Positions 4,566 through 12,534 of a stretch of 46,113 bases of DNA are shown in pieces. Source of the DNA: Phormidesmis priestleyi ULC007 (GTDB lineage Bacteria > Cyanobacteriota > Cyanobacteriia > Leptolyngbyales > Leptolyngbyaceae); NCBI RefSeq assembly GCF_001895925.1, contig NZ_MPPI01000002.1:1-46113 (forward strand), written 5' to 3'. Below the pieces are notes generated by a model. That model was not told the DNA's origin, ran no database searches, and saw nothing but the letters and a program-made list of their open reading frames with translations. The translations under genes were made by a program, and so were the position numbers. Within the stretch, counting starts at the first letter, position 1, and each line of letters begins with the position of its first letter.

Positions 4566-5034
4566 AGTCTTGACTGCGTGAATGCTTTTCAGCGTGACTT
4601 AAGAGAATATAGTACCGCGATTGCAGCCCAACGATCGAGTTGAACCGCACCAGATCGATTGCAGCTACTGTCAACTAAAGTTAACAGTGCGGTTAACCCT
4701 ACCTACTATGCTTCGCGTGTCGGTTCCAACGAGGTTGTTCTACGAAACTGGGGATGGATAGAGTGTTCCCAACAGGTAACATTTGTATCCAGTTCTCGTG
4801 GAACTATTGATTATACGGAAACTTTCCGTGTATCTCCCCGCACTTCCCGAAAAAACGATCGCTCCGCAGTTCCCCATCGGGTAATCGCATCACCTCAAAA
4901 ATTTAGCATTCCAAAAAACAAAAAACTCCTGTAGAATACATCGCAGTGATGAAGTTGTGCCCCGAAATCTGATCGGCAAATCAGACTCCGAGGACTTCCA
5001 TCCCTAGTTACCGACAATAACTCAGGAGGCGTTC
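4566..5034. other. Non-coding stretch with two dyads
   Basis: No convincing gene is seen. Two dyads stand out. One has 10-base arms (4667-4676 ACTGTCAACT and 4679-4688 AGTTAACAGT) matching at nine positions. The other has 7-base perfect arms ACGGAAA/TTTCCGT around a single base (4815-4829). Such compact dyads are protein-binding shapes rather than terminators. A short hairpin, TCTGAT (4968-4973) with ATCAGA (4980-4985), lies 50 bases before the small ORF at 5035. An open frame at 4659-4934 has no ribosome site or recognisable composition and is not called. Confidence 0.4.
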
Positions 5035-5154
5035 ATGATTGTACACCGTCAGCTTTGCTATGGGATCTTGAAAGGCTGGAATCAAGATCCTGCATACATT
5101 CTTCATCCCTTTAGAATGTCTGAGAAATCAGCATTCTTGTCCTCTTTGAACTAA
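5035..5154 (+). CDS. Possible small protein or leader peptide (39 residues)
   Basis: A 39-codon frame starts with ATG at 5035, preceded by a perfect AGGAGG (5024-5029) at a five-base spacing, the strongest ribosome site in this part of the window. It ends with TAA at 5154, and the ATG of the 123-residue gene follows 18 bases later. The peptide begins MIVHRQLCYG and ends LSSLN. It has one Cys and no clear membrane segment or signal sequence. The strong ribosome site and tight spacing suggest a translated upstream gene or a leader for the next one. I do not recognise the sequence, and short frames do occur by chance. Confidence 0.45.
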   Translation: MIVHRQLCYGILKGWNQDPAYILHPFRMSEKSAFLSSLN

Positions 5155-5172
5155 CCGAGAGGACAAAATAAT

Positions 5173-5544
5173 ATGGGAGTTAGGACTGTGATTCCTAGCT
5201 CGATCGCGTTCACCGTTGAGTTGCGTTGCTCAACCGAAAAGCGTTATCGAGTCAGTGTGACTTTGGATTTGCAAGAGCGTTATATCTTCCTTTCGTCTGG
5301 CATTCTCGTGAATGTTAGCGATCGCATTGAAGAGTTTGTTTCACAACTGAGTGAAATTGCGTCCAATCAACTAGCATTTCTCAAATGGGATGGCACGAGT
5401 GACTTGACGACTGAATATCAAATTGTTCGAGTTTTACCGGGCTATCAAATTGAACGTTCTTTAGTGAAGTTCAACATCGCGATCGGTAATGGTTCTCTAA
5501 TTCAAGTGGAGGAGGTGCACAACAAAATCACCATCCAACTCTAG
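5173..5544 (+). CDS. Hypothetical protein, 123 residues
   Basis: I do not recognise this family. The protein is soluble-looking and rich in beta-type alternation (FTVELRCSTEKRYRVSVTLD; KFNIAIGNGSLIQVEE), with one helical stretch near the middle (about 52-66, DRIEEFVSQLSEIAS). A GAGAGG ribosome site lies ten bases before the ATG. Codon use resembles neighbouring genes, including GCGATCGC-type sites inside the frame (around 5320). It probably shares a transcript with the small ORF upstream. Downstream it converges on nadE, with a MITE-like inverted repeat in the gap. Confidence 0.6.
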   Translation: MGVRTVIPSSIAFTVELRCSTEKRYRVSVTLDLQERYIFLSSGILVNVSDRIEEFVSQLSEIASNQLAFLKWDGTSDLTTEYQIVRVLPGYQIERSLVKFNIAIGNGSLIQVEEVHNKITIQL

Positions 5545-5617
5545 GAGGTTGGGCGTTAGGGAGCCATTGATTAACGTCAGTTCGACGAGTTTTTTCGCTT
5601 CGTTAAGAGCGGCTTCT

Positions 5618-5698
5618 GCCCCCTAAATCCCCCATTCTGGGGGACTTCAAGCCAAAATTTCCGATTCAAAGTCCCCCATTTTGGGGGATTTAGGGGGC
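5618..5698. repeat. MITE-like inverted repeat element, copy 1
   Basis: Two 29-base arms, 5618-5646 and 5670-5698, are near-perfect inverted copies of each other: GCCCCCTAAATCCCCCA, a three-base spacer, then TGGGGGACT. Each arm also contains its own small palindrome (CCCCCA/TGGGGG). The arms enclose 23 bases. The whole can fold into a long hairpin on either strand. It lies between the convergent 3' ends of the 123-residue gene and nadE, and could also act as a transcription barrier. A second copy is at 35914-35995. There is no transposase gene and no clear target duplication. Confidence 0.85.
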
Positions 5699-5789
5699 TT
5701 CCCGAATTCACAATCGGAGTGAACCCTGTCGAACTGACGCTTGATTAACTCTTGGAAAACTGTGAAGCAATCCTTGAATAGTCTCCAAG

Positions 5790-7511
5790 TCAAACAGGCT
5801 GAGAGGGTTGTTTCGCAGGATCGTTTGCAATGGTCGCAGTTCGAGCAATCCATTTAGTAGCGATCGGCATTCTCCAGCCTGTGCCAAAAGCGCGATCGGT
5901 GATTTTCAATCCTGGTGGCGCTTGGCGACGTTTGAATTCTGCGATCGTCACGAGTTTAACCACGCGATCTACCACAACTTGATCATGTCCAGCAGCAACA
6001 ATTTCGGTAGCGGACTGATGTTGATGAATCAAGCGATCGAGTATGTCATCCAAAATCTCGTAGGCTGGCAGCGAGTCTTGATCGACTTGCCCCGGCTTTA
6101 ACTCAGCGCTCGGTGCCTTAGTAACAATGTGGGTAGGAATGATGTCAGAACCCAGCCATTTACAGATCGAGTAGACGCGGGTTTTAGGCACATCTGCGAT
6201 CGCTGCAAGTCCCCCATTCATATCACCATACAGAGTACAGTAGCCGACCGCCATCTCAGATTTGTTGCCTGTGGAGATTAACAAATAGCCGAATTTGTTG
6301 GAGATTGCCATCAACAATGTGCCTCGAATCCGAGACTGAAGATTCTCTTCGGCAACACCAAACTCTGTGCCTGTAAATAAGTCTTCTAGAGTTTGGTCAT
6401 AGCTTTGCATGAGATGCCCGATCGCCAACATTTGAGTTTTAATCCCAATATTTTTGGCGAGTTTTAACGCATCTTCAACCGAGTGATCAGAACTGTAAGG
6501 CGAAGGCATGAGAACGCCTAATACATTCTCGGCACCGAGCGCGGCGGCAGCGATCGCAGCAACTAAAGCCGAATCAATTCCACCACTTAACCCCAACACA
6601 ACTTTAGAAAAGCCACACTTGCGCGCATAGTCACGTACGCCCATTACCAGCGCTGCCCAGATTTCAGCTTCGTCACAGTCAGGAGCAGGAGCCACAGAAC
6701 TAGGCAGAAAATCCTGAGTTTCGGGATTGTAGTCGATCGCCACCCAATCTTCCTCAAAGACACGAGCACGACAAACTAGATTTCCGTGACGATCGACCGC
6801 AACACTGTTCCCGTCAAAAATCAAATCGTCATTGCCGCCGACTTGATTGGCATAGACGATCGGCTGATCAAACCGTACCGCCCCATGTTGCAGCATCGCT
6901 TCTCGCAAACGTTGTTTGCCGACTGTATAAGGAGATGCCGAAAGATTGATCGTAAAATCAACACCTTGTTGAGCAAGATCGGCGATCGGGTTCAGTGTAT
7001 AACTCCGTTTGCCCCAAAACTCTTCATCATTCCAAAGGTCTTCGCAAATGGTGACACCAATCCGCACAGATTGACCCAAATGCTCTAAGGTGAACTGATT
7101 TGGCTCCTTTCCAGGCTCAAAATAGCGGTCTTCATCAAACACGTCATAAGTTGGCAACAGGCGTTTGTGAAAGATTTGGAGAATTTGTCCTTGTTCTAAA
7201 AGAGCGACGCTGTTGAACAGAGGTTTGCCGCCATTTTGCAGCGATCGCGCATTCGGTTCCACAGTTCCCACCAAAACCGCGACTCCTGATGGAAGTTGCT
7301 CTGCTAACTCTAGTAGCGTCCGAGTGATCGCCTCAACAAAACTCGGATTCATCAACAAATCACGCGGCGGATAGCCACACAGAGACAATTCTGGAGTGAG
7401 TAGTAATCGCACTCCTTCACTTGCGGCTCGTTGTGCAGCTTGCAAGATTTGTTGAGCATTTCCTGCTAAATCTCCGATCGTCGGATTGAGTTGAGCGATC
7501 GCAATTTTCAT
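5790..7511 (-). CDS. nadE: Glutamine-dependent NAD+ synthase
   Basis: This is a 573-residue two-domain enzyme. Residues 1-260 are a nitrilase-fold glutaminase with the triad Glu41 (TPELSLCGYPP), Lys116 (FHKRLLP) and Cys156 (TICEDLW). Residues 280-550 are the NAD synthase domain with the ATP-pyrophosphatase loop SGGIDS at 309-314. The glutaminase releases ammonia that is channelled to adenylated deamido-NAD, giving NAD. The gene is last in the pncB-nadD-nrtR-nadE unit, 11 bases after nrtR. The length is usual for the glutamine-using form. The final step of the pathway is therefore encoded beside the first two. Confidence 0.98.
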   Translation of the reverse strand: MKIAIAQLNPTIGDLAGNAQQILQAAQRAASEGVRLLLTPELSLCGYPPRDLLMNPSFVEAITRTLLELAEQLPSGVAVLVGTVEPNARSLQNGGKPLFNSVALLEQGQILQIFHKRLLPTYDVFDEDRYFEPGKEPNQFTLEHLGQSVRIGVTICEDLWNDEEFWGKRSYTLNPIADLAQQGVDFTINLSASPYTVGKQRLREAMLQHGAVRFDQPIVYANQVGGNDDLIFDGNSVAVDRHGNLVCRARVFEEDWVAIDYNPETQDFLPSSVAPAPDCDEAEIWAALVMGVRDYARKCGFSKVVLGLSGGIDSALVAAIAAAALGAENVLGVLMPSPYSSDHSVEDALKLAKNIGIKTQMLAIGHLMQSYDQTLEDLFTGTEFGVAEENLQSRIRGTLLMAISNKFGYLLISTGNKSEMAVGYCTLYGDMNGGLAAIADVPKTRVYSICKWLGSDIIPTHIVTKAPSAELKPGQVDQDSLPAYEILDDILDRLIHQHQSATEIVAAGHDQVVVDRVVKLVTIAEFKRRQAPPGLKITDRAFGTGWRMPIATKWIARTATIANDPAKQPSQPV

Positions 7512-7522
7512 GTTCTACTCAC

Positions 7523-8266
7523 TTAAATAAATACCAAAGGTTTGTCTTTAAGAGGCGCAAATGCCTCGGCATCAAATCGATATAAACTTGCTGGACGACC
7601 CGCCCCCCGTGAGGCTTTGATTCCCGTATCTCTGAGAAAACCTAGTTTGAGAAGGCGCGATCGAAAGTTTGAATAATCCGAAAAGTTGTCCCCCAACACT
7701 GTTGTATAGAGTTGAAACAAATCACTCAACGTAAAAACTTCGGGCAACACATCAAACGCGACTGGGCTATATTCCAGCTTGTTTCTAAGTCGGCAGTGCC
7801 CATATTCCAAAATCTTGTTGTGGTCAAATGCCAACTGCGGCAACTGATCTAAGGGATACCAGGCAATGCCGCTCACACCATCTGCAATCAGTTCGGCTTC
7901 GGCATAGCGCACCAGCGCAAAATAACTGACCGACAGATAACGCACCCCATAACTATCCTCTGCCTCACGCGGATCACGATTCGGACCGCCAAACGTGTAG
8001 AGTTGCTCTAAATAAAGATTTCGCGCCCGAATCTTTTCAGACAGAATCCGGTAGGCAGCATTTTCCAAAGATTCACCCTGCCTGACTAGCGTTCCGGGCA
8101 AACTCCACTGTCCCAGAAAGGGTTCTTCTTGGCGCATCACCAGCAGCACCAGCAGCCGATTCAGCGCCGTATCGACCGAAAAGATTGCGTTATCAACGCC
8201 CACTCTAAAATCTGCTAACGCCTCTCCTGCTAATAAGTGGGCAATTTTTCTCTGCGTGCGTGACAT
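7523..8266 (-). CDS. nrtR: NrtR-type regulator (degenerate Nudix domain plus winged helix)
   Basis: This 247-residue protein has a Nudix fold (about 20-150) followed by a winged-helix region (about 170-247) ending in the GAGRPASLYRF pattern typical of NrtR. The Nudix box is broken: where active enzymes have G-x5-E-x7-REUxEExG, this one has Thr59, Glu65, Arg73-Ile-Leu-Ser-Glu-Lys78 and Arg80, so two catalytic acids and both key glycines are changed. NrtR proteins bind ADP-ribose and repress NAD genes. The gene overlaps the 3' end of nadD by 37 bases and precedes nadE by 11, so it probably senses and controls its own operon. An active Nudix hydrolase is the less likely alternative. Confidence 0.85.
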   Translation of the reverse strand: MSRTQRKIAHLLAGEALADFRVGVDNAIFSVDTALNRLLVLLVMRQEEPFLGQWSLPGTLVRQGESLENAAYRILSEKIRARNLYLEQLYTFGGPNRDPREAEDSYGVRYLSVSYFALVRYAEAELIADGVSGIAWYPLDQLPQLAFDHNKILEYGHCRLRNKLEYSPVAFDVLPEVFTLSDLFQLYTTVLGDNFSDYSNFRSRLLKLGFLRDTGIKASRGAGRPASLYRFDAEAFAPLKDKPLVFI

Positions 8267-8826
8267 TTGTACAGTTGCTCCCGATCGATATAAGCCTGAA
8301 TTGGAGAAGTCACCCCCTCCGTTTCTCCCTGTTCACGGTAGGCGGTAGACGAGACATTTGGGGCATTGAGATCCGCGATCGTCACGTCGGCTCCCATCTG
8401 CCGCAAAGGGTCTAGCTCTTTGTCTGCAATCAAATATCCGGGTCTGGGCACCACTAAAAGCTTGACCCGATCAAGCAAGTCTCTCGCCCGAAACCATTTT
8501 GGCAGTTGACCCACCAAATCAGACCCGACAACTAGCGTAAATTCTGCACCCTGCCAGCGTTCCTGCGCCTGCTCTACTGTGATCACGGTGCGAGAATTGC
8601 TCAACTCTGGATAGACCTGAATGTTGTGTCGAAATGAGTCTAAGTCACTAATCAGCAATCGCAACATCTCAGTGCGGTGGTCTAACGCCGTTTGGTGAGA
8701 CTTAAACGGGTTATCTGATGCCCAAACCGCGACTTGATCAAAGTACTGAGAAAGCCAGCACAAAATGGCGAGATGTCCTCTCGTAGGGGGGTCAGCGCTA
8801 GTGCCAAACAATGCAACTCTTAACAT
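8230..8826 (-). CDS. nadD: Nicotinate-nucleotide adenylyltransferase
   Basis: This 198-residue nucleotidyltransferase has the family motif GTSADPPTRGH at residues 8-18, where the His binds ATP phosphates, and a late SSTAYRE motif matching the ISSTxxR signature. NadD joins nicotinate mononucleotide to AMP, giving deamido-NAD, the substrate of NadE. It starts with ATG 44 bases after pncB, and its last 37 bases are shared with the start of nrtR. In many bacteria nadD sits with yqeK and rsfS; here those two are 6 kb away, and nadD has moved into an NAD-specific operon. Confidence 0.95.
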   Translation of the reverse strand: MLRVALFGTSADPPTRGHLAILCWLSQYFDQVAVWASDNPFKSHQTALDHRTEMLRLLISDLDSFRHNIQVYPELSNSRTVITVEQAQERWQGAEFTLVVGSDLVGQLPKWFRARDLLDRVKLLVVPRPGYLIADKELDPLRQMGADVTIADLNAPNVSSTAYREQGETEGVTSPIQAYIDREQLYKCHARREKLPTY

Positions 8827-8870
8827 AGGTTAAATGGGTGAAGGAGAATCTTTAATCTAGAAGCGTTCAC

Positions 8871-10220
8871 TCAATCGGTTGTTTTTCGTCGAGTTTTTTT
8901 GATTAGAGCGGACAGATCGTCAGAAAGATCTAACGGAATCGATTCGGGCTGATCGATATCCCGAACTGAGGCGGACAAACTGGCAACAGAAGCGATCGTT
9001 CGTTCAGCGATCGTACTCAAACTGTCTGATTCTTGCACTCGCTGCCCCTGTTTGAAAACAAGCTGCATCAAAGGCTGTTCGTGATCAGGAGTTTCGTGGA
9101 TTAAACCTAAGCGATCGCACTGCACGATTCCGTTTTCAACGCGACGAAAAATCTGCTTCCGTCCCGGATGGGTAATCTTGCCTGGAGATTCTTTCATCAC
9201 TGGAATGCCGTCAATCTCCACCAGTTTATAGACTCCGTTTACTGGAGAACCTGTCACGAGTTGCGTTCCAATGCCATAACCATTGATGCAGGCTCCTGCC
9301 GCCTTTAGTTCAGCAATCTTCCATTCATCTAAGTCACCACTCGCAATGATGGCGACTCCGGGCAAGAGCGATCGCACCTGCTGAGACAGCGACGCGAGAT
9401 CACCCGAATCGATTCGCACTCCCGATAGTTGAAGTCCCGCTTTCATTTGCTCGGACAAATCGCGGGCAGCAGCGATCGTGTCATAAGTGTCAATCAACAG
9501 CGGCGCACCCGGAAAGTAGCGGTGAAATGCCGTAAATGCCTCTGCCTCAGTGCCTTCTGTCGCACTCAATGCCATCACGAGCGCATGGGCCATCGTTCCA
9601 GAAGGTGTGCGTCCTAGCTTCACGGCAGCTAAGACATTAGACGTGGCATCTAACCCGGCTGCCAATGCTGCACGAGCCGCCCACAAAGCACCTTGGGGAC
9701 TGAAAGCTCTGCGAGTGCCAAACTCTAATAGGGTTGCGTCTACTCCGGCTACGTCACGCATTCGCGCCGATCGAGTTGCCACTAGGGTTTGATAGTTCAG
9801 CGTGTTTAGTAAATAGGTTTCGACGAGTTGCGCTTGCCAGAGAGGGGCTTCTATCCGCAGTAACGGCTCGTTAGCGAAGATGGCGGTTCCCTCTGGCACT
9901 GCCCAAACGTCGCCGCTAAATCGAGCTTCTTGCAGTACAGCCCAAAATTGGGTCGGTGCATGCTCAAAAGCGCCCATCGACTGGAGAGCTTCAACCTGAG
10001 TAGAACTGAATCGAAATTTCTCTAGATAATCTAGAGCTTGAGCCAGCCCCATCGCAATCAAATACCCAAATCTTTCAGGCAAGCGCCGAACGGTCATCTC
10101 AAAGCTGGCGCGACGCTGATCTAGATGTTCGCCCACATAACAGGCTGCCATCGTCAACTGATATAGATCAGTGAGAAGGCTGTAATCGTCTGGCGTTAGC
10201 GTCAGTTCTATGTCTTCCAC
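8871..10220 (-). CDS. pncB: Nicotinate phosphoribosyltransferase
   Basis: The enzyme converts nicotinate and phosphoribosyl pyrophosphate to nicotinate mononucleotide, the entry step of the Preiss-Handler pathway. The DYSLLTDLYQLTM start, the GTMAHALVMA motif and the RIDSGDLASLS phosphate-binding stretch mark the family. I choose the GTG at 10220 (449 residues): a perfect AAGGAG (10227-10232) precedes it by six bases. A longer frame reaches a TTG at 10316, but that codon lies inside the -35 region of a good promoter with TATAAT at 10287-10292. It is the first gene of the NAD unit. Confidence 0.95.
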   Translation of the reverse strand: MEDIELTLTPDDYSLLTDLYQLTMAACYVGEHLDQRRASFEMTVRRLPERFGYLIAMGLAQALDYLEKFRFSSTQVEALQSMGAFEHAPTQFWAVLQEARFSGDVWAVPEGTAIFANEPLLRIEAPLWQAQLVETYLLNTLNYQTLVATRSARMRDVAGVDATLLEFGTRRAFSPQGALWAARAALAAGLDATSNVLAAVKLGRTPSGTMAHALVMALSATEGTEAEAFTAFHRYFPGAPLLIDTYDTIAAARDLSEQMKAGLQLSGVRIDSGDLASLSQQVRSLLPGVAIIASGDLDEWKIAELKAAGACINGYGIGTQLVTGSPVNGVYKLVEIDGIPVMKESPGKITHPGRKQIFRRVENGIVQCDRLGLIHETPDHEQPLMQLVFKQGQRVQESDSLSTIAERTIASVASLSASVRDIDQPESIPLDLSDDLSALIKKTRRKTTD

Positions 10221-10286
10221 CCGATTCTCCTTAAGTTGATTAAGTTCGCTTGCAGGAAGAGAAGTTTGATGGCTCTTACTTCTAGA

Positions 10287-10316
10287 ATTATAGTCAAAAG
10301 AACCAAAAATATGCAA
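10287..10316 (-). promoter_or_regulatory. Probable promoter of pncB-nadD-nrtR-nadE
   Basis: On the minus strand a perfect -10 box TATAAT (10287-10292) stands 18 bases from a TTGCAT -35-like box (10311-10316). Transcription would begin near 10280, giving a leader of about 60 bases before the GTG at 10220. An 8-base palindrome TTCTAGAA (10280-10287) covers the expected start point, a classic position for a repressor operator; whether NrtR binds there is unknown. Confidence 0.5.
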
Positions 10317-10490
10317 ACAAAAAACCAGTTTTTTCTGCTAACGAAACACAATGCTCCCAAATGTCCATGAATCTGTTTGCGATTAAAGATTGAGAATGTA
10401 GTATTTTTAGTGATTTTTATCAAAAATGTATATCTTGGGTGATATCCATTTGATTTGTGAAAGCGAGAGATCCGTATCCAGACACGGCAG

Positions 10491-10540
10491 TGCCATGCCC
10501 ATCCAAAAGCGTAGGGGCATGGCATGCGGTGCCCCGTCCG
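10491..10540. repeat. Palindromic GC-rich element
   Basis: A perfect 10-base stem, TGCCATGCCC (10491-10500) with GGGCATGGCA (10515-10524), encloses 14 bases. The right arm also forms an overlapping palindrome, GGGGCA...TGCCCC (10514-10535), starting with GTAGGGGC. GTAGGGGC palindromes are common intergenic repeats in cyanobacteria, and this looks like a degraded one. No T-run follows on either strand. Confidence 0.5.
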
Positions 10541-10578
10541 ATGGAGCGATCAGTCACAATTGCTTCCGAAATCGGTAT

Positions 10579-10620
10579 GAGAGGGCGATCGACTTGATAA
10601 GTGCCGAAGGAGCAACCCCA
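10579..10620 (+). promoter_or_regulatory. Glycine-riboswitch-like aptamer fragment (3' half missing)
   Basis: On the plus strand GAGAGGGC (10579-10586) is followed by GTGCCGAAGGAGCAACCCC (10601-10619). GCCGAAGGAGCAA is identical to the conserved core I recall for the first aptamer of the Bacillus subtilis gcvT glycine riboswitch, and GAGAG is the conserved 5' side of its P1 stem. The required 3' partner (CTCTCAGG) is not found downstream. Instead the sequence runs straight into the 3' end of the oppositely oriented ABC gene (stop at 10624). A truncated relic is the most likely reading; a chance match remains possible. Confidence 0.4.
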
Positions 10621-10623
10621 GAT

Positions 10624-12534
10624 TTACGATGCAGAAAGTCCGCGTTGTTCTTGACGTTCGCGAATCCGATCGAGCGTCCCGACCGGAATCGCCGCAATTA
10701 ACTGCCGCGTATAGGGTTGTTGAGGGTGACGATAAATCGTGTCAGCCGTGCCGACCTCTTCAATTTTGCCTCGGTTCATCACGACGATGCGATCGCTCAT
10801 AAACTTCACCACACTGAGATCGTGAGAAATGAAGATATAGGTCAACCCAAATTCTGATTGCAGTTCTTTGAGCAGATTGAGCACTTGCGCCTGCACCGAG
10901 ACATCCAGCGCTGAGACAGACTCATCGCAGATGATGAACTTAGGATTAAGAGCTAGCGATCGGGCAATACAAACCCTTTGCCGCTGCCCACCCGAAAACT
11001 CGTGGGGATAGCGCTTCATCAAATCAGGGTCTAGTCCCACTCGCTGCAATAAATAAGCTGCCCGTTCCTGATGCTGTTTGCCCTTGCCGCGACTATAAAT
11101 TTGTAGCGGCTCCATCACGGCTTCCCCGATGTTGAGTCGCGGGTCGAGCGAACTGTAAGGATTTTGGAAGATAATTTGCGCTTCTCGTCGCAATTGACGA
11201 ACTTGTTTTGGCGGCAGCGACAGAATATCTTTGCCTTCAAATAGCACTTTTCCCGTTTTCGCTTCAATCAGCCGCAATAGCGTTCGTGCCAGGGTCGTTT
11301 TACCGCAACCCGATTCACCCACCAGTCCCAACGTCTCGCCAGGATATACGTCAAACGAGACATCGTTAACGGCCATCACATAGCGCTTGGTCTGCCCAAA
11401 AATGCCCCGCACCGGAAACGCGACCTGAAGATTTTGCACTGAGACGAGCGGCGGTTTTTTCTGAAGTTCTTGCAATCGCGAGTTAAATTCAGTGTCGCTA
11501 ATCTCCTCAGCACTGCGGAGCGCAGCATTCACATCTTGCTGTTTCGCTTCGATCAGCGTCTCCCCATTCCGCAGCCTAGAGACTTCCATAAAGTCTGAGA
11601 CGGTAGGCAGGTAGCGCAGGCGACGATCGGGCTGAGGGCGACAGGTCAGCAATCCCTTTGTGTAAGGGTGTTGAGGGTTAGAAAAAATGTCTAAAACAGA
11701 GCCATATTCGACAATTTTACCTTCATACATCACCGCAACTTGATCGGCAATTTCAGCGATTAAACTCAAATCATGGGTGATAAACATCATGCCCATGCCG
11801 CGCCGATTTCGCAAATCTCGCAGCAAGTCCAAAATCGTGGCTTGCACCGTCACATCGAGCGCAGTCGTCGGCTCATCAGCGATCAGCAAAGTGGGATTGC
11901 AAGAAATCGCCATCGCAATCATCACACGCTGAATCTGTCCGCCCGAAAGCTCGTGAGGGTAGCGATCGAGCATGGCTAATTTCTGTCGGTTGATCTGACG
12001 ATCGATCTCAACTTGACTCGGTTGCGTCCCATCTGGATAAAACTCTTCTAGAAATCGGCGTTTAAGCTCCTCGTCGGGCGGCAGCAGTTTCACTTCTTGC
12101 AAAAGTGAAACTGCTCGGCGCTGTGCCTGAGATTCAGAGATCTTTTCGTGTAGACGAATCGCCTCAGTCAGTTGAAACCCACACGTGTAGACCGGATTGA
12201 GCGAACTCATCGGCTCCTGAAAAATCATCGAAAGCCGATCGCCCCGATAATTTTGCAACTCCTTAACCGGAACGCGCAGTAGATCTATCGGTTCGCCGAT
12301 CGTTTCAGCATCACTAAACCAGATTTCGCCTCCCGTCACCCGACCCGGCGGATTGGGCACCAATCCCATCACTGCCAGCGACGTGACCGATTTTCCCGAA
12401 CCCGATTCCCCCACGATTCCTAGCGTCTGCCCCCGTTTCACCTGAAAAGAGATGCCATCCACCGCTTTCACAGTTCTTGTATCGGTTTTGAACTGTACCT
12501 GAAGGTCACGAACGTCAAGAATAATCTCACTCAT
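10624..12534 (-). CDS. Peptide-type ABC transporter, two fused ATP-binding domains
   Basis: This 636-residue protein is two DppD/DppF-like ATPases in tandem. The first has Walker A GESGSGKS near residue 45 and signature LSGGQIQRV; the second has GESGCGKT and FSGGQRQRV about 330 residues later. Each ends with the oligopeptide-binding cysteine-containing or proline-rich tail typical of dipeptide/oligopeptide, nickel or glutathione importers. Together the two would power a peptide-type importer, but no permease or binding-protein gene is nearby, so the substrate is open. I prefer the ATG at 12534 over a TTG nine bases upstream. The 3' end abuts the riboswitch-like fragment. Confidence 0.92.
   Translation of the reverse strand: MSEIILDVRDLQVQFKTDTRTVKAVDGISFQVKRGQTLGIVGESGSGKSVTSLAVMGLVPNPPGRVTGGEIWFSDAETIGEPIDLLRVPVKELQNYRGDRLSMIFQEPMSSLNPVYTCGFQLTEAIRLHEKISESQAQRRAVSLLQEVKLLPPDEELKRRFLEEFYPDGTQPSQVEIDRQINRQKLAMLDRYPHELSGGQIQRVMIAMAISCNPTLLIADEPTTALDVTVQATILDLLRDLRNRRGMGMMFITHDLSLIAEIADQVAVMYEGKIVEYGSVLDIFSNPQHPYTKGLLTCRPQPDRRLRYLPTVSDFMEVSRLRNGETLIEAKQQDVNAALRSAEEISDTEFNSRLQELQKKPPLVSVQNLQVAFPVRGIFGQTKRYVMAVNDVSFDVYPGETLGLVGESGCGKTTLARTLLRLIEAKTGKVLFEGKDILSLPPKQVRQLRREAQIIFQNPYSSLDPRLNIGEAVMEPLQIYSRGKGKQHQERAAYLLQRVGLDPDLMKRYPHEFSGGQRQRVCIARSLALNPKFIICDESVSALDVSVQAQVLNLLKELQSEFGLTYIFISHDLSVVKFMSDRIVVMNRGKIEEVGTADTIYRHPQQPYTRQLIAAIPVGTLDRIRERQEQRGLSAS

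Follow-up and report, generated by a model that had tools for sequence, protein, structure and literature searches.

A predicted NrtR operator shared by a pncB-nadD-nrtR-nadE gene run and nadA in Phormidesmis priestleyi ULC007 and related cyanobacteria

The NrtR family of transcriptional regulators was reportedly founded by Rodionov et al. 2008, and the NAD genes of cyanobacteria are said to be treated by Gerdes et al. 2006. Here we analyse a putative NAD operon that contains a gene for a regulator of this family, and that lies within a stretch of 46,113 nucleotides (the window) from the cyanobacterium Phormidesmis priestleyi ULC007 (assembly GCF_001895925.1, contig NZ_MPPI01000002.1, positions 1 to 46,113). 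According to excerpts of the published work, which are the basis for all citations given here, ADP-ribose suppresses DNA binding by NrtR from Shewanella and from Synechocystis, NdnR of Corynebacterium responds to NAD, and the family's operator motifs differ from one bacterial group to another (PMC4666351). Mycobacterial NrtR controls nadABC via GTTTTCGA-N7-TCGAAAAC (PMC6800001), and a further layer of control, exerted on the enzyme, is described in Synechocystis, where NAD inhibits NadE and PII lifts part of this inhibition (PMC7196632). An operator at nadA of a cyanobacterium was not met in the excerpts of the literature searched, which did not extend to the papers of 2008 and 2006 named above.

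The system most directly comparable to the one in the window is NrtR of Synechocystis, likewise an NrtR-family NAD regulator in a cyanobacterium and reported to respond to ADP-ribose (PMC4666351); it is likened here by family and by that report, its operon and operators lying outside the loci that we compared. SoNrtR of Shewanella oneidensis (PDB 3gz5, 3gz6 and 3gz8) has the same two-domain architecture, aligned over query residues 24-232, but matches the window protein with no more than 102 bits. MsNrtR of Mycobacterium smegmatis is similar in its control of nadA together with nadB and nadC, in its N7 palindrome and in its degenerate Nudix motif, whereas its half-site is GTTTTCGA rather than the TTWTGGT found here, and its own gene stands beside nadABC on the opposite strand and not within a pncB-nadD-nrtR-nadE run (PMC6800001). 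The closest solved structure by sequence is that of BtAraR from Bacteroides thetaiotaomicron (PDB 5bs6; 125 bits), which belongs to the same family but controls arabinose genes and senses arabinose (PMC4666351), whereas the recurrent targets here are NAD genes.

The gene run and its predicted operator

The run occupies positions 10220-5790 on the minus strand, and its identification from sequence as pncB, nadD, nrtR and nadE with gaps of 44, -37 and 11 bases was confirmed. In particular, pncB (8871..10220) encodes a nicotinate phosphoribosyltransferase that scores 622 bits with NF006696 (cut-off 503), and its GTG start at 10220 is preceded by AAGGAG at 10232-10227; nadD (8230..8826) encodes a nicotinate-nucleotide adenylyltransferase (NF000842, 253 bits, cut-off 167); and nadE (5790..7511) encodes an NAD synthase with an N-terminal amidase domain (NF010588, 762 bits, cut-off 479), with CN_hydrolase at residues 2-256 followed by NAD_synthase at 285-531. 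The third gene, nrtR (7523..8266, counted from the first ATG; the real start may be further inside), encodes a Nudix-related transcriptional regulator with matches to NUDIX, NrtR_WHD and AraR_C; a Nudix domain is combined with an NrtR/AraR-type winged helix, in keeping with the NrtR-like protein that had been proposed for this place. For the three enzymes the family models give a clear assignment; the steps from nicotinate to NAD are all covered by the run, as the sequence-only reading had it, and pncB, nadD and nadE, the set that marks a Preiss-Handler operon, are found together. Elsewhere in the window's genome (118 contigs totalling 5.68 Mb, with a completeness of 99% and a contamination of 2.8%) nadA is present, and the nucleotidyltransferase family has, besides nadD, two further matches, CoaD and an HldE-like protein. 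In a search for the NAPRTase family, which a NadV should also match, pncB was the sole match and no NadV surfaced (nadM and nadV were not sought by name). Taken together with the evidence below, we consider it very likely that the four genes are one transcription unit, which combines nicotinate salvage with the two final steps that are common to both routes of NAD synthesis and is governed by an autoregulating NrtR-family repressor that also holds nadA.

Ahead of pncB lies a palindrome, TTTTGGTTCTTTTGACTATAA (10288..10308, minus strand), that we predict to be the NrtR operator. Its consensus among relatives is TTWTGGT-N7-ACYATAA and its form in the window is TTTTGGT-N7-ACTATAA; the strict form TTATGGT-N7-ACCATAA was the reference for scoring boxes, with 14 as the maximum. 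For comparison we used the 80 best nrtR loci outside the window, a ranking by match that leans toward the window's relatives; by their record titles all are from cyanobacteria except L067, from a metagenome bin labelled Tatlockia. The 67 of these loci that hold pncB, less two that begin too close to it (L067 and L078), gave together with the window 66 upstream regions, 64 of which contain a box scoring at least 12. By comparison, among 3300 dinucleotide shuffles a score of 12 was reached three times and 13 never. Moreover, the box scores 14/14 in the window and in 18 other genomes of the same family, and when these 19 upstream regions were aligned every fully conserved column fell within the block that holds the box and a TATAAT.

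This TATAAT (10287..10292, minus strand) would serve as the -10 element, with five of its six bases inside the right half of the operator, and a weak -35-like TTGCAT (10311..10316, minus strand) stands at a spacer of 18. The single good promoter claimed for the run thus stood as to the TATAAT but needs qualifying as to 'good', given that a scan by consensus did not include it; the scan missed it because the -35 part matches at only 3 of 6 positions, and the case for the promoter being real comes from conservation, which holds for all 19 upstream regions of the family. A single promoter ahead of pncB with a strongly conserved palindrome is also what the proposed gel-shift experiment had assumed. 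A known RNA element was considered and rejected, as a search of Rfam with positions 5000-11500 returned nothing at gathering score.

The position of the box within the run is as specific as its sequence. Boxes scoring at least 13 precede pncB in 63 of 65 cases, nadD in 5 of 77, nrtR in 0 of 80 and nadE in 0 of 64, the last two in line with the single promoter proposed from the sequence. In the 1.05 Mb covered by the 80 loci there are 61 exact boxes, compared to 0.07 expected from base composition, 57 of them directly before pncB and four before nadD, with none elsewhere; the four at nadD belong to loci in which pncB is absent or distant. (A weaker match to the box, with two mismatches, lies at 10405-10425 on the minus strand, on the upstream side of the first and roughly 100 bases away from it.)

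Boxes at nadA and at other genes

The window's genome contains three exact boxes: the one at pncB, one in the nadA promoter (contig C26) and one (contig C56) inside a frame that we read as a glycosyltransferase; the last was rejected as a true site and taken as chance. Also rejected were boxes with two mismatches as a genome-wide signal, their counts of 52 and 73 being at the chance rate given by the reversed control (60 and 74). To survey nadA, we drew on 116 genomes, 107 of them with nadA, and inspected 70. The box is present at nadA in 29 of the 30 closest genomes, all of which have an nrtR match, and in 16 of 20 more distant, hand-chosen genomes that bear nrtR. In total it is found in 45 of 50 nrtR-bearing genomes as opposed to 1 of 20 that lack nrtR (for 16 of 20 versus 1 of 20, Fisher p = 2e-6 in those two samples, uncorrected for relatedness). 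The regulon is therefore wider than the operon, and the description of the run as self-contained fails on two counts: an exact copy of the box stands before nadA elsewhere in the genome, and the source of nicotinate also lies outside the run. As judged from these sites, a common switch appears to govern both salvage and de novo synthesis.

We next consider where else the box occurs. Across 59 genomes, 73 exact boxes with the following T were found, spread over 43 of the genomes, compared to one match for the reversed pattern. By coordinates, 40 of the 73 lie before nadA and 20 lie upstream of nrtR by 2.0 to 2.7 kb, the distance at which the operon would begin (pncB is sequence-confirmed for four of these 20, in G000, which is the window's genome, and in G015, G034 and G048, and the other 16 are placed by coordinates alone). 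The remaining 13 comprised the glycosyltransferase-like site on C56 and 12 that we fetched and tested by tblastn with five NAD proteins. Eight of these 12 precede pncB, nadD-nrtR-nadE or nadE, one precedes the gene for a protein of 371 amino acids, and for three (L266, L272 and L276) that search detected no NAD gene nearby. Thus 68 of the 73 exact boxes precede NAD genes and five do not. Recurrent pentose-gene targets, the mark of an AraR/XylR-branch regulator, were not seen in this set, in which the family-library scan of genes near the five non-NAD boxes covered only the 371-aa protein.

The genome G038 is informative in that its operon is split (L273 and L274, with nadA on C119) and exact boxes are found at pncB, nadE and nadA each, an argument for tying the box to a regulator rather than to any single gene. 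That regulator could, in principle, be a different one, with nrtR merely travelling along with the NAD genes, since the box was found by conservation alone. We regard this as highly improbable: the presence of the box at nadA tracks that of nrtR, the targets of the exact boxes are NAD genes with few exceptions, and the half-site spacing of N7 equals that in the layout of the mycobacterial NrtR site (PMC6800001). The equal spacing fits the same dimer geometry in both cases, and NrtR is accordingly kept below as the predicted occupant of the box.

A possible source of the nicotinate used by PncB is suggested by the gene for the 371-aa protein (L268:210-1322, plus strand, genome G039), which has an exact box starting 61 bases before it. 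The protein has no match in Pfam, NCBIfam or PDB, but carries the stretches LAIDVQNTF, MDTH and SHCV, by which, in our reading, it resembles an isochorismatase-type cysteine hydrolase. If it were a nicotinamidase, it would supply PncB with nicotinate and close a recycling loop. The box at this gene is thin evidence, as it was seen only once in 59 genomes. A homologue in the window's own genome (L277) is 70% identical over query residues 3-338, and no box precedes it (best score 9/14). The same genome has six matches to the isochorismatase family; the best of the five that were scanned reaches 39 bits, compared to a cut-off of 174 for the nicotinamidase PncA, which would make nicotinate from nicotinamide, and the sixth (L175) was left unscanned. 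The broader proposal is speculative, and we give it only a slender chance: cyanobacterial NrtR would act as the one valve for both NAD routes (nadA and the pncB-nadD-nrtR-nadE run) wherever it has been retained, in most lineages at least, and would in some of them also control this nicotinamidase-like hydrolase.

The regulator, its probable signal and alternative readings

The regulator contains NUDIX (residues 27-153), AraR_C (166-247) and NrtR_WHD (170-231), each above its Pfam cut-off. Alignment of the Nudix signature GX5EX7REUXEEXGU in 81 homologues, in a register set by eye, indicated that the first G is replaced by T and the last E of the EE pair by K in all 81, and that the E of RE is replaced by I, V or T in at least 79, while E65, R73 and E77 are kept in all 81. 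Losses of this kind fit a sensor that no longer hydrolyses, and catalysis by the Nudix-like domain has probably been lost.

The overlap of the box with the promoter spacer and the -10 element suggests a repressor that acts by barring the way to polymerase. We infer that this NrtR binds the box, that it represses rather than activates, that its ligand is ADP-ribose and that the four genes are co-transcribed. When NAD is ample, an NrtR dimer on 10308-10288 would fill most of the promoter spacer and cover five of the six -10 bases, and RNA polymerase would be kept off. A product of NAD breakdown, most likely ADP-ribose, would then bind the Nudix-like domain and release the repressor, whereupon PncB, NadD, NrtR and NadE would be made. 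Because the same repressor would hold the nadA promoter through the matching box, de novo synthesis and salvage would rise together. One regulator would in this way tie de novo NAD synthesis to salvage, and the box offers a precise and cheaply testable candidate operator for NAD control in many cyanobacteria, in which the supply of NAD(H) bears on photosynthesis, dark metabolism and engineering. The general picture of NrtR is unchanged, as control of nadA by NrtR has been described in mycobacteria (PMC6800001) and the Synechocystis protein has already been tested (PMC4666351).

Several observations weigh against these proposals. Two of the pncB upstream regions, L095 and L110, are without the box. 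Of 16 nadD-led loci, in which pncB is missing or over 400 bases distant, five have a box, nine do not and two are cut off by the end of the contig, so that the shortened run is in some lineages not under this operator. At nadA the box is missing from one of the 30 closest genomes (L164) and from four genomes of the lineage f5 (G004, G029, G068 and G111; L197-L200) that have nrtR and a divergent NadA, and it is present, at 13/14, in G094, which lacks nrtR. As for the protein, its best solved relative is an arabinose regulator, BtAraR, which comes ahead of SoNrtR, and its score with NF050029, the equivalog model for ADP-ribose-responsive repressors, is 116 bits, well below the cut-off of 400. 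(In lineage f5 the regulator may act through a different operator or on different genes.)

By its sequence, then, the regulator is assignable to the wider NrtR family and not to the narrow NF050029 equivalog; from that low score and the nearness of BtAraR it follows that sequence alone does not name the ligand. ADP-ribose is probably the signal, by analogy with relatives. The regulator might instead work in the opposite direction or sense something else, as an activator or with NAD or an intermediate of NAD synthesis as co-repressor in the manner of Corynebacterium NdnR. Such a reading would accommodate the NF050029 score and the fact that ligands differ within the family, with ADP-ribose, NAD and arabinose all represented (PMC4666351, PMC6800001). 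We nevertheless think it rather doubtful, given that a box which covers the -10 element along with most of the spacer suits a repressor better than an activator, and that ADP-ribose is reported to release NrtR of Synechocystis (PMC4666351).

The nine nadD-led loci without a box bear also on whether the run is one operon, since an uncontrolled promoter must serve there. That nadE, or nadD and all that follows, might have uncontrolled promoters of its own besides that of pncB is favoured by loose spacing in some relatives: 6 of the 58 loci with all four genes have a gap of at least 1 kb, and the gap before nadE is large in several relatives. In the window, by contrast, the genes are separated by 44, -37 and 11 bases, and the promoter scan listed no minus-strand promoter-like site within the run (a weak point, as the scan's counts fall below those of shuffles). 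Uncontrolled promoters within the run are therefore unlikely in our view, and we retain a single unit transcribed from the promoter before pncB as the preferred reading.

Gene order among relatives and surroundings of the run

An nrtR match (E 1e-10 or better) is found in 232 of 291 genomes of the class. The order pncB-nadD-nrtR-nadE on one strand is kept in 58 of the 80 best related loci, and for this reason the arrangement exceeds chance. The shorter patterns are pncB-nadD-nrtR (nine loci), nadD-nrtR-nadE (six), nadD-nrtR (six) and nrtR alone (one), some of them reflecting contigs that end early. Within the fetched stretches nadD is present in 79 loci, pncB in 67 and nadE in 64; four of the 67 pncB genes sit more than 400 bases ahead of nadD. 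Among the 58 four-gene loci, all gaps are 300 bases or less in 41. The view that the run is tidier than usual in bacteria is not supported by this survey: the cluster is the common cyanobacterial arrangement, orderly but ordinary.

Downstream of nadE lies a hairpin-forming inverted repeat (5618..5698; arms 5618-5647 and 5669-5698, 90% complementary), a possible terminator. With at most one mismatch, the window's genome contains 253 plus 268 copies of its arm GCCCCCTAAATCCCCCA, compared to 5 plus 2 for a control. The hairpin is a dispersed palindromic repeat of this genome, and it may act as a terminator here.

Further downstream, a repeat of about 700 bases, at about 4880-5573, holds an open reading frame (ORF) of 123 amino acids (5173-5544, plus strand) that has no Pfam family (best match E 0.14). 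The ORF is present in 21 copies in the window's genome, the 20 others being 79-94% identical in protein, and of 17 other copies of the repeat that we fetched, most align with the window over about 4880 to 5570 at a DNA identity of 78-92%. The repeat may represent a mobile unit of small size, or else a gene family that is spreading. Finally, parts of the assembly may be present twice, as the same box pattern is found at the same coordinates on contigs C101 and C118, and equal family scores are found on C62 and C69.

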